From NCBI GenBank assembly GCA_015061885.1, contig SUVS01000009.1:1-64000 (forward strand): a stretch of 64,000 bases of DNA, written 5' to 3'. The notes below the pieces were generated by a model, which made no database searches, was not told the DNA's origin, and worked only from the letters and a program-made list of their open reading frames with translations. Origin of the DNA: Lentisphaerota bacterium. GTDB lineage: Bacteria > Verrucomicrobiota > Lentisphaeria > Victivallales > Victivallaceae. Shown one piece after another: positions 194 through 3,974 of the stretch. The stretch's first letter is position 1. Every line of letters starts with the position of its first letter. A program made the position numbers and the translations under genes.

Positions 194-871
194 TTACAAT
201 CTGTTTTTATATTCTGCAACCAGTTCTGCAAGTTTGCCGCACGGGGTTCTGACAACTTCTGTATCAATGATAATAGCATCAGCTCTGTTGTCTGAACACA
301 GGGCAGTCGGCAGTTGGGTTTGTGCTTTGACTGCTGCGGCAGTTTGAGCGTTGTCGCAATAGATGATACTGCCGGGGAGCGCGAGCATTTTTTTCAGACG
401 CTCCGGCGAAGTGGTCTTGCTTGCTGATATAACTGTATTGATATTGTATTTGGCGGCATAGGGGGCGATTTCGGCATATTCTTCGCAAGGCAGATCGAGT
501 ATCCGCAAGGCGTCGATTTCCAGCTCCGATAATTCGGCAAAAAGTTTGTCATAACCGTATTGCAGAAAGATGTTGCAGTAGCCGGAAATTATCAACCCGA
601 CTTCCGGATGATTCTGCCGGATGGTTTTGAGCATGGCAATGATCTTGCTCAAATCCGCACCGTTCTGCAAGGCGGTTTGATAGGCTTTCTGAATGGCGGC
701 TCCATCCGCCATGGGGTCGGAAAAAGGTATGCCCAACTCCACAATGTCAGCTCCGGAGCGGATGATTTCTTCAATGCGTTGAGCCGAAGTATCCATATCC
801 GGGGCACCGGCACAATCAAATACGATCAGGGCTTTTTTATTGCCGGAAAATATATTCTGAAAACGGTTCAT
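194..871 (-). CDS. trpA: Tryptophan synthase alpha chain, short and divergent (225 aa)
   Basis: [18 protein letters not shown] motif; directly downstream of trpB with a 4-nt overlap. Confidence 0.85.
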
Positions 872-2043
872 CGGTGATTCTCCTTGTAGTTGCGGACATT
901 TTCCATATCTTTATCTCCTCTGCCGGAAAGATTTACGATTATAATATTTTCTTTGCTGTAAGTTGGAGCCGTTTTGATCGCCTGGGCTATGGCGTGGCTG
1001 GATTCCAATGCCGGAATGATCCCTTCCAGACGCGAAAGTGTATCAAACGCCGCTATTGCTTCGTCATCATTTATTACAGTATAGTTTGCCCGCTTGGTAT
1101 CGGCAAGAAAACTGTGTTCCGGGCCTACTCCGGGGTAGTCAAGTCCGGCGGAGACGGAGTGCGTTTCGGTGATCTGCCCGGTAATTTCCTGCAAAAGATA
1201 AGTTTTACAGCCGTGGAGGATACCAACCGTGCCGCCGTTGATGCTGGCGGCGTGTTTGCCCGAAGCAATGCCCGAACCGCCGGCTTCCACGCCGGTAAGT
1301 TTTACGCTTTCATCTGCCAGAAATCCGGCAAAAATCCCCATGGCGTTACTTCCGCCGCCGATACATGCAATAACTTCATCGGGGAGTTTGCCGGTTTTTT
1401 TCAGGCACTGTATCCGGGCTTCTTTGCCGATAACGGATTGAAAATCTTTGACGATCGCCGGGTAGGGGTGCGGTCCGGCAACTGTACCGATGCAGTAAAA
1501 GGTATCGTGAGCATTTTCTGCCCAGTAGCGGATCGCTTCGTTCATAGCGTCTTTCAAGGTGGCACTGCCGGATTCCACGGCGATTACTTCGGCACCGAGA
1601 ACTTTCATGCGGTCAACATTCGGAGCCTGCCGGGCCACATCGACTGCACCCATAAATACTTTGCACTCCAAGCCCAGCAGTGCCGCTACAGTGGCAGTCG
1701 CCACACCGTGCATACCCGCACCGGTTTCGGCAATGAGTTTATGCTTGTTCATGCGTTTTGCCAGCAGAGCCTGACCGATAGTGTTATTTACTTTGTGAGC
1801 CCCGGTGTGGTTGAGATCTTCGCGTTTGAGGTAAATTTGAGCTCCATTGCAATATTCCGACAACCGCTTGGCGTGATACAGCGGCGATTGACGCCCGATG
1901 TAATTGGTCAGCAACTCGTCCAGTTCCGCTTGAAAAGCCGGATCTGCTTTAGCCGCAAGATACGCTTCTTCCAGCTCGTTGAGTACACTCATCAATGCTT
2001 CGGGGATATATTGTCCGCCGTAAATACCGTAGTGTGAATCCAT
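868..2043 (-). CDS. trpB: Tryptophan synthase beta chain
   Basis: [17 protein letters not shown] (PLP lysine), GGGSNA motifs; full length 391 aa. Confidence 0.97.
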
Positions 2044-2086: not shown

Positions 2087-2119
2087 AAAAAAGCCCTCCG
2101 GAAAGTTTATCCGGAAGGC
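2087..2119 (-). terminator. Second intrinsic terminator-like hairpin in the trpB leader
   Basis: Minus strand GCCTTCCGG-ATAAACTTT-CCGGAGGGC-TTTTTT (9-bp stem with one G-U). Confidence 0.8.
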
Positions 2120-2129
2120 ATCTTGTCAT

Positions 2130-2162
2130 AAAAAAAGCGGTTCGCATATTTTTGCAAACCGC
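2130..2162 (-). terminator. trp attenuator terminator (3:4 hairpin)
   Basis: Minus strand GCGGTTTGC-AAAAATAT-GCGAACCGC-TTTTTTT (9-bp stem with one G-U). Confidence 0.85.
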
Positions 2163-2182
2163 CACAGGCACAACAAAACTCT

Positions 2183-2210
2183 GCGTTCCGGCGGTCAAAA
2201 CCGCCAACGC
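2183..2210 (-). promoter_or_regulatory. trp leader 1:2 hairpin overlapping the leader-peptide Trp codons
   Basis: Minus strand GCGTTGGCGGT-TTTG-ACCGCC-(GG)-AACGC; ACCGCC can alternatively pair with GGCGGT of the downstream terminator stem. Confidence 0.75.
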
Positions 2211-2251
2211 CAACTGCAAATATTCAAGATTGTAGCTTTTGAGTTTTTCAT
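2195..2251 (-). CDS. trpL: trp operon leader peptide MKNSKATILNICSWRWRF (18 aa, Trp-Arg-Trp)
   Basis: ATG at 2251, TGA at 2195-2197; two Trp codons just before the stop, overlapping an attenuator hairpin upstream of trpB. Confidence 0.8.
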   Translation of the reverse strand: MKNSKATILNICSWRWRF

Positions 2252-2260
2252 AATGCTATC

Positions 2261-2288
2261 AATATAACTCCATAAAAGCAAAATGCAA
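2261..2288 (-). promoter_or_regulatory. Putative sigma70-type promoter of trpL-trpBA
   Basis: TTGCAT-16 nt-TATATT on the minus strand, ending about 9 nt before the trpL ATG. Confidence 0.55.
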
Positions 2289-2297
2289 GCGTAAATA

Positions 2298-3974
2298 TTA
2301 CTTTTTGAGCAAAGATTTGTTTTTCAACTCAAATTTATCCCGGGTTTTGCCGTCACTGTCCATGGTTTCGATGAATATCTGATTGTTTTTGACTTTCACC
2401 AGCACTGCGACGCCGTTGACAAATTTTCTGGCTCCGCCGCCGGGAATTATCACCGGGAAGTTCCATTCTTTATCCGCCGGAGTTACCTTGTAAACATGGG
2501 TGTGTCCGGCAAACCACAGATCCACCGGATACGGTGCCGGATTGCCTTTGAATACATCTCTGGTCATCTTGCGTAATCTCGGAAGCATGTGATTGAACTC
2601 ATCTCTCTGGCTGTGAGGAGCTATGTGAGCAAAAACCATGCGGTAATCTGCTTCGGCAAAATCTTTGCTTTTGACCACTTCTTTGAGCCACGCGGTCTGT
2701 TCAGCTAACAGAGTATCAAGCTCGTTCAAACCGGTAAATTTCTGGAAACTGTTTTTGGAATCTTTGGGCAGATGATGCCCGGTATCCAGAATTATAAAGA
2801 ATATATTGCCTATTCTGAATGCCTGATAACTTTTGTTATCCTTGCTGGCAAGATATTTGAGATAGCGTCCGGACTGGGCTCCATCGAACTCATGGTTGCC
2901 CCGCATGGGTACAATGAGCTGATGCTTCGGGATGAGCTTGAGGAAACTGTCAAAAAGCGAAAGCTCTATATCATCCTGATTACTGCTGAAATCGCCCAGA
3001 TGCAGGAACATATCCGCTTTTGCCAGTTCCCGGCGTTTATCGAGCAGATTTTTCAGGTGTTTGAGCTTGGAAAAGTTATCCGTCTGGGTATCAGCCATGA
3101 TCCAGAAAGAAAAATTCTGATTTTTACTGCTGAAAGTCCGGAATGTGCGTACTTCATCGGGTTCGCTCTGACGCAGTTCAGTACCAACGCGTTTGAGTGC
3201 CCGGTATTCATATACTGTATCGGGGGCAAGATCTTTGAGGTCAAAACGCATGACCGGCCCTTCATCAAGGAGCTGACCGCCGCGGAGGATCTGGATTTTT
3301 TTCCAGACTTTGTTGCCTTTTTTGCGGTATTCAAGCTCAAGGGGCTGTCTGCCCTGAATTACATAACTTACAGTAATGGAGTCGGCACCCGGATTGGTCA
3401 GGTAAGGCCCATACAGCACTTTGGCCGGCAGAGGCAGTTGGCGGGGCTTGTTCAACTGGGCATCAGCCGGCGGTTCGCCGACCGCCACCGTCCAGCCGCC
3501 GATACCGCTGCGGGTAAAGATGGTAAGTTCATTGCGTCCGGCACGCAGCGGCAGTTCAAAAACAAAACTTGTAACCGTAGGCGGCCAGAAAAGATTGCCG
3601 GACTGGGTGGTACCGAAAACAAATTTTCCATTGCAATAGCAGTCAAACCACCAATCCGCTCCCATACCCATACGCAATTTGCCGGGTTTGTCGGCATAAA
3701 CAGCGGCGGTTATGGCGGCAAACTGGAATTTTTTACCGGGATCGAGCTTACGCAAATCGAGTATATTGCCGTCGATCTTGACTTTTTGTGCCGGAATTTG
3801 CGTTTTTTCATCCAGAAGCAGAACATCGTCTTCAAAACGCAAAGAGGCGGCATTTTCGGTGGTGATTTTATCGGACAGGAATACTTTGAATTCCTGCGGA
3901 TAAATCTTTTCGGCTCCGGTAAGCTGGGCGGCAATTATTCCGGCGGTAAGAACTGCAAGCGTTTTTTTAGTCAT
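2298..3974 (-). CDS. Secreted purple-acid-phosphatase-like metallophosphoesterase (calcineurin-like domain)
   Basis: Signal peptide-like N-terminus; WIMADTQTD, LHLGDFSSN, RGNHEFDG, AGHTHVYK motifs. Confidence 0.85.
   Translation of the reverse strand: MTKKTLAVLTAGIIAAQLTGAEKIYPQEFKVFLSDKITTENAASLRFEDDVLLLDEKTQIPAQKVKIDGNILDLRKLDPGKKFQFAAITAAVYADKPGKLRMGMGADWWFDCYCNGKFVFGTTQSGNLFWPPTVTSFVFELPLRAGRNELTIFTRSGIGGWTVAVGEPPADAQLNKPRQLPLPAKVLYGPYLTNPGADSITVSYVIQGRQPLELEYRKKGNKVWKKIQILRGGQLLDEGPVMRFDLKDLAPDTVYEYRALKRVGTELRQSEPDEVRTFRTFSSKNQNFSFWIMADTQTDNFSKLKHLKNLLDKRRELAKADMFLHLGDFSSNQDDIELSLFDSFLKLIPKHQLIVPMRGNHEFDGAQSGRYLKYLASKDNKSYQAFRIGNIFFIILDTGHHLPKDSKNSFQKFTGLNELDTLLAEQTAWLKEVVKSKDFAEADYRMVFAHIAPHSQRDEFNHMLPRLRKMTRDVFKGNPAPYPVDLWFAGHTHVYKVTPADKEWNFPVIIPGGGARKFVNGVAVLVKVKNNQIFIETMDSDGKTRDKFELKNKSLLKK

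Follow-up and report, generated by a model that had tools for sequence, protein, structure and literature searches.

Results

The leader upstream of trpBA

On the minus strand near the start of the window (by which we mean the whole 64,000-nucleotide stretch of Lentisphaerota DNA analysed here), a promoter is followed by a short leader reading frame, trpL, a hairpin designated 1:2, two intrinsic terminators, T1 and T2, and then by trpB and trpA. In order along that strand, the features and the basis on which each was assigned are as follows.

2283-2288, minus strand: -35 box, TTGCAT (direct reading; position kept in genus relatives)
2261-2266, minus strand: -10 box, TATATT, ending 9 nt upstream of the trpL ATG (direct reading)
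2195-2251, minus strand: trpL leader ORF, 18 codons, MKNSKATILNICSWRWRF, Trp codons 14 and 16, stop codon 2197-2195 (translation)
2200-2205, minus strand: segment 1, GGCGGT, over the second Trp codon (direct reading; lineage test of 1:2)
2190-2195, minus strand: segment 2, ACCGCC, partner of segment 1 or segment 3 (direct reading; alignment)
2186-2191, minus strand: segment 2b, CCGGAA, a complement of the T2 5′ arm, proposed to act as a second antiterminator strand (folding and permutation tests)
2170-2179, minus strand: flanking strand, predicted extension of the 2b:T2 pairing, with its partner at 2129-2120 (predicted fold only)
2158-2163, minus strand: segment 3, GGCGGT, base of the T1 5′ arm (direct reading)
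2130-2163, minus strand: terminator T1, hairpin 2163-2136 and U7 (terminator scan; compensatory changes in the alignment)
2087-2119, minus strand: terminator T2, hairpin 2119-2093 and U6, with TTCCGG at 2116-2111 in its 5′ arm (terminator scan; genus conservation; compensatory changes)
868-2043, minus strand: trpB, tryptophan synthase beta (NCBIfam TIGR00263, 620.7 bits)
194-871, minus strand: trpA, degenerate tryptophan synthase alpha, 225 aa (NCBIfam TIGR00262; GVTG, GFGI, and GSA motifs lost)

The promoter is of the sigma-70 type, with a 16-nt spacer between TTGCAT and TATATT, and no Shine-Dalgarno-like site precedes the trpL ATG. In both respects the locus agrees with a preliminary description of this DNA, as it does in the 18-codon trpL, whose translation places its two Trp residues at codons 14 and 16, and in the 1:2 hairpin that overlaps those codons. 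This hairpin pairs GGCGGT (2205-2200) with ACCGCC (2195-2190) and is lengthened by GCGTT/AACGC; the antiterminator alternative, in which the same ACCGCC pairs with GGCGGT at 2163-2158, is also present. The tracts of seven and six U residues behind the two terminator hairpins were likewise borne out, but each stem, originally put at 9 bp, had to be corrected, since the scan counts 11 pairs in T1 and 10 in T2. The leader RNA as a whole folds 5.65 sd below its dinucleotide shuffles, none of 200 of which folded equally well.

No Rfam family reaches its gathering score in the window, the models searched including those for trp, his, and other amino-acid leaders and for T-boxes. The best trp-related match in the window is that of the leader to the trpB motif (RF04312), which scores 23.8 bits against a threshold of 59; this motif is a proposed riboswitch candidate of Firmicutes and Fusobacteria, and its authors leave a classic attenuator possible (PMC11109978). 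A covariance model (R1), trained partly on the window's own leader, detected no second copy in the same genome at the threshold used. With no Rfam family at threshold, and with a double-terminator layout that is widespread in the order, the element is not a plain example of the E. coli trpL-type design initially ascribed to it.

Conservation in the genus, the order, and the phylum

A trpB gene was found in four of five genomes of the genus, and upstream of it the promoter spacing, the leader, T1, and T2 are kept in all four. The four leaders end in WRWRF, WRWRV, WRWR, and WHWR, and in every one TATATT stands 9-10 nt ahead of the ATG. At trpB in most of the other family genera examined, trpF lies just upstream and there is no leader; in those genera Trp-codon leaders sit before trpE.

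We built a covariance model from 12 such leaders, limiting its structure to 1:2, T1, and T2. The model, whose sequence profile contains the CCGG core of the strand following the trpL stop codon and may favour leaders that share it, and whose structure omits pairing of that strand with T2, matches 79 of the order's 138 genomes at E<=1e-3; across the phylum (390 genomes) its matches are sparser. The genes downstream of the matched leaders, as read from their sequences, are trpE, trpB, trpB2-like genes, and genes for DAHP synthase, the leaders before the last of these being rich in Phe, Tyr, and Trp. Compensatory changes on both sides are present in the alignment at 15 of the 31 pairs that make up 1:2, T1, and T2, and a scan of 30 relative loci against Rfam gave no family at the gathering threshold.

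Conservation in relatives had been put forward in the preliminary description as a check on its proposal. The WxW leader and the alternative pairings are indeed kept and, with the conserved promoter geometry, this comparative evidence supports the proposal itself, a ribosome-mediated trp attenuator ahead of trpBA. The tandem terminator, on the other hand, is not the oddity it was first taken to be: the double-terminator layout is widespread in the order, T2 being missing in a few related leaders.

Other arrangements were seen among the loci collected. Nine trpB2 leaders have a second hairpin that lacks a U tract and adjoins the ribosome-binding site. Tandem Trp-codon leader ORFs, each with its own terminator, precede trpE at five loci, and three aromatic-rich leaders of similar layout stand ahead of DAHP-synthase-like genes. 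One Trp leader (L219) is succeeded by three consecutive terminator-like hairpins; another leader, ending in LLLLLLR (L210), is followed by a T1-like terminator and a helix-turn-helix-like ORF; and a Kiritimatiellae assembly (L038) carries a CWWWR leader and a single terminator-like hairpin before trpB.

Position of the trpL start

The promoter geometry predicts that the trpL transcript would have a 5′ leader of 1-5 nt. The distance from the end of the -10 box to the start codon is 7-11 nt in 95% of 61 distinct leaders, as against 25% of shuffles, and a promoter score of at least 9/12 is reached by 90% of 61 related leaders and by 7% of shuffles; the window's own promoter scores 8/12. In a comparison set of 25 attenuators from the same order that have either one terminator or two leaders, only one shared the near-leaderless geometry, and an SD-like site was present in 16. 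Because this geometry is so rare in that comparison set, we conclude that near-leaderless starts accompany tandem terminators.

Complementarity between the post-stop strand and T2

CCGGAA, just after the trpL stop codon, is complementary to TTCCGG in the T2 5′ arm, and we refer to pairing between this post-stop strand and that arm as strand:T2. A stalled ribosome was represented in constrained folding by masking nucleotides as far as A-site+12 of the first Trp codon, in a transcript truncated ahead of the T2 3′ arm. Under this constraint strand:T2 pairing forms in 17/17 leaders; with the ribosome removed and the same truncation, most of the 17 form little or none of it, partial exceptions being the window's own leader, the clearest, with about 8 pairs, and two others with 5-6. 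A stepwise simulation of co-transcriptional folding was set aside, since in none of its ribosome states did the E. coli terminator fail to form.

We then asked how specific the complementarity is to each lineage, using an alignment-free permutation in which the post-stop strand of each lineage is matched to the T2 5′ arms of other lineages; tests of this kind measure lineage-specific complementarity, not function. With 14 leaders, a set that contained those that had prompted the idea, p was 0.0014 for the shuffle-normalised score, and with 11 lineages it was 0.0003; the raw-energy form of this first permutation gave 0.0026 and 0.00135. The value fell to p<=5e-5 with 27 leaders, and was p<=1.5e-4 for 12 leaders fetched after the idea had been formed and p=0.004-0.006 for seven leaders from outside the order. 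Across 30 lineages, none of 50,000 permutations was as good (p<2e-5). The controls (T1 3′ arm, T2 3′ arm, 5′ part of trpL, and the region after T2) were flat, one value being less so (p=0.08 for the T2 3′ arm in the first 14 leaders). By the same permutation in 30 lineages, the 1:2 pairing is lineage-specific at p=0.00015 and the 2:3 pairing, between segments 2 and 3, at p=0.0002, the latter reaching only p=0.08 with 14 leaders. The flanking helix, which joins the post-stop region to the T1-T2 spacer, was dropped as a candidate in its own right, its lineage specificity being absent when it was taken by itself (p=0.44).

Individual leaders illustrate the strand:T2 match. In L222, a clear case, GCCTCAAG faces CTTGAGGC, and in L180 an 11-pair match joins CCAGG...TGGAT to ATCC...CCTGG. 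The anatomy of the element, its conservation, and the lineage-specific complementarity of 1:2, 2:3, and strand:T2 are in our view established.

Loss of the upstream trp pathway

Profile searches of the five genus genomes, which are incomplete yet all agree on the absence of these trp genes, gave no match to trpE (chorismate_bind, PF00425), trpD (Glycos_transf_3, PF00591), or trpF (PRAI, PF00697), and none to the Trp repressor, trpR. The same searches do match trpE and trpF in most relatives. The matches to IGPS (PF00218) in the genus are to a divergent TrpC-like protein that has WDF at the motif site, where presumably KDF would be expected of an IGPS; it adjoins leuC, and given the missing trpE, trpD, and trpF, it may have another role. 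Each of the five genus genomes encodes this protein next to leuC, with the residues RWDF.

The TrpA proteins of two genus genomes, G000 and G001, align through the ELG and ADG motifs and have lost the phosphate-binding motifs GVTG, GFGI, and GSA. Similar losses were read from the sequences of G003 and G002, the second of which also lacks the aspartate of ADG, and homologous TrpA structures align over the N-terminal three quarters only. Because trpE, trpD, trpF, and trpR went undetected and the phosphate-binding motifs of TrpA are lost, we suggest that trpBA, whose TrpA may no longer accept indole-3-glycerol phosphate, probably serves indole salvage and has retained an old attenuator. Beyond trpA, positions 1-75 of the window (minus strand) hold the start of a further gene; its likely counterpart follows trpA in L005 (MLKVGYAQEIITPPTGVDLAGYF...) and is one that we take to resemble neutral ceramidases.

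Discussion

The textbook attenuator has one antiterminator per terminator. The element described here is, we think it likely, a tryptophan attenuator of the ribosome-mediated type, with two intrinsic terminators under a single leader peptide. Our fuller reading, to which we would attach a probability of about 0.6, is that of a dual-lock attenuator, both of whose terminators would be disarmed by a single leader peptide and an RNA strand used twice, in an element that is conserved across the order, reaches other classes of the phylum, is mostly near-leaderless, and has here outlived the remainder of the trp pathway as the control of an indole-salvage operon.

We infer the stalling of the ribosome, the dependence on tryptophan, the order of events, and the prevention of termination by base pairing, as follows. 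Transcription would start a few nucleotides from the trpL ATG, judging from the promoter. When Trp-tRNA is ample, the ribosome would reach the stop codon and cover the post-stop strand, or alternatively would depart and leave that strand hidden in the 1:2 hairpin; in either event T1 could form and terminate transcription, and T2 would stop those polymerases that slipped past T1. When tryptophan is short, the ribosome would stall at Trp codon 14 or 16, leaving the post-stop strand exposed. The exposed strand would pair first with the T1 5′ arm (2:3), so that T1 is passed, and its CCGGAA part would then pair with the 5′ arm of T2 while the 3′ arm has yet to be made, so that T2 is passed in its turn and trpBA is transcribed. 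Of the two roles earlier suggested for T2, a second sensing step did not hold up, as T2 has no leader of its own, and it is probably not a second sensor. The other, a fail-safe, fits insofar as T2 would catch slipped polymerases, but T2 would not be merely unconditional if the covarying strand:T2 pairing is functional.

The alternative that fares best, which we nevertheless consider unlikely, is classical attenuation at T1 alone, with T2 an unconditional fail-safe that lowers basal expression while some polymerases read through. T2 has the form of an ordinary terminator hairpin with U6, it is missing from some related leaders, and equilibrium folding of the full-length leader favours it whatever the state of the ribosome, stalled included. 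It follows from this last result that antitermination at T2 would have to be kinetic. The preference is not decisive, because the E. coli trp leader (a control whose sequence we confirmed against 5,399 genomes) behaves alike for its own terminator, constrained folding giving the antiterminator until the terminator 3′ arm appears and the terminator at full length. Against a passive T2 stand two considerations: (i) a strong unconditional terminator between switch and gene would block starved cells too; and (ii) such a terminator has no need of the lineage-specific strand:T2 complementarity that was replicated in two sets assembled after the idea was formed.

It is also conceivable, if rather improbable, that the post-stop strand resembles the T2 3′ arm as the relic of a local duplication or gene conversion, and that strand:T2 pairing is functionless. 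Such resemblance alone would yield complementarity to the T2 5′ arm, and the CCGG core is indeed present in both places in several leaders; however, the pairing survives with wholly different sequences in L222 and L180, which would require repeated matched change. We give very little credence to the opening of T2 by a ribosome on a second short ORF whose ATG (2129) lies beyond the T1 U tract, for although an ATG after T1 opens a frame through T2 in three of the four genus leaders, that frame is absent in several other lineages, and in L116 a GTG after T1 directly meets a stop. Least credible of all is that T1 and T2 terminate the upstream gene (2298-3974), with the trpBA promoter located after T2: that gene does run in the same direction, with about 10 nt between its end and the -35 box, but the stretch from it to T1 contains a promoter, an ORF with Trp codons, and pairings that exclude one another, the leader is kept behind a different upstream gene in G003 and G002, and the same element stands ahead of trpE and other genes elsewhere.

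Control of two terminators by one leader peptide thus remains our preferred reading, and its parts have precedents: near-leaderless Trp leaders, an attenuator before trpB2A, and tandem terminators. The element shares with E. coli trpL a leader ORF with Trp codons, mutually exclusive 1:2, 2:3, and 3:4 pairings, an intrinsic terminator, and its behaviour in constrained folding. It differs in having two terminators rather than one, with a strand that can pair with the second as well, and in having no Shine-Dalgarno sequence, almost no 5′ leader, and only trpBA under its control. In Sinorhizobium meliloti the attenuator transcript (rnTrpL) begins at the trpL ATG and there is no trp repression (PMC7298713); trpLE(G) of that species has one attenuator terminator (PMC7298713), whereas here there are two and a leader of a few nucleotides is predicted. 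A candidate attenuator has been predicted before trpB2A of Corynebacterium diphtheriae (PMC1262725), an operon of the trpBA type like the one described here; unlike here, trpB1EDGC supplies the other trp genes, and we found no mention of a tandem terminator there (PMC1262725). Tandem terminators before a single gene, one of them with a clear potential antiterminator, are known from the rimP-leader of Gammaproteobacteria (PMC2965389), which differs from the present element in lacking an amino-acid leader peptide and in preceding an unrelated gene. Chlamydia trachomatis trpRBA keeps the synthase to make tryptophan from exogenous indole, a catalytically impaired TrpA acting on TrpB (PMC9378776); there control is by the TrpR repressor, whereas here it would be by an RNA attenuator in a genus with no TrpR match. 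Our searches of the openly licensed literature turned up neither a case of two terminators under one leader peptide nor any account of leader-peptide attenuators in Lentisphaerota.

If our reading is correct, a single sensor would open two terminators in turn, giving less leakage without a second sensor. The leaders collected here also bring to light candidate leader-peptide attenuation in this phylum, and tie it to near-leaderless leader ORFs. An attenuator kept for tryptophan synthase after the upstream pathway had been lost suggests, finally, that these bacteria make regulated use of indole from their gut neighbours.
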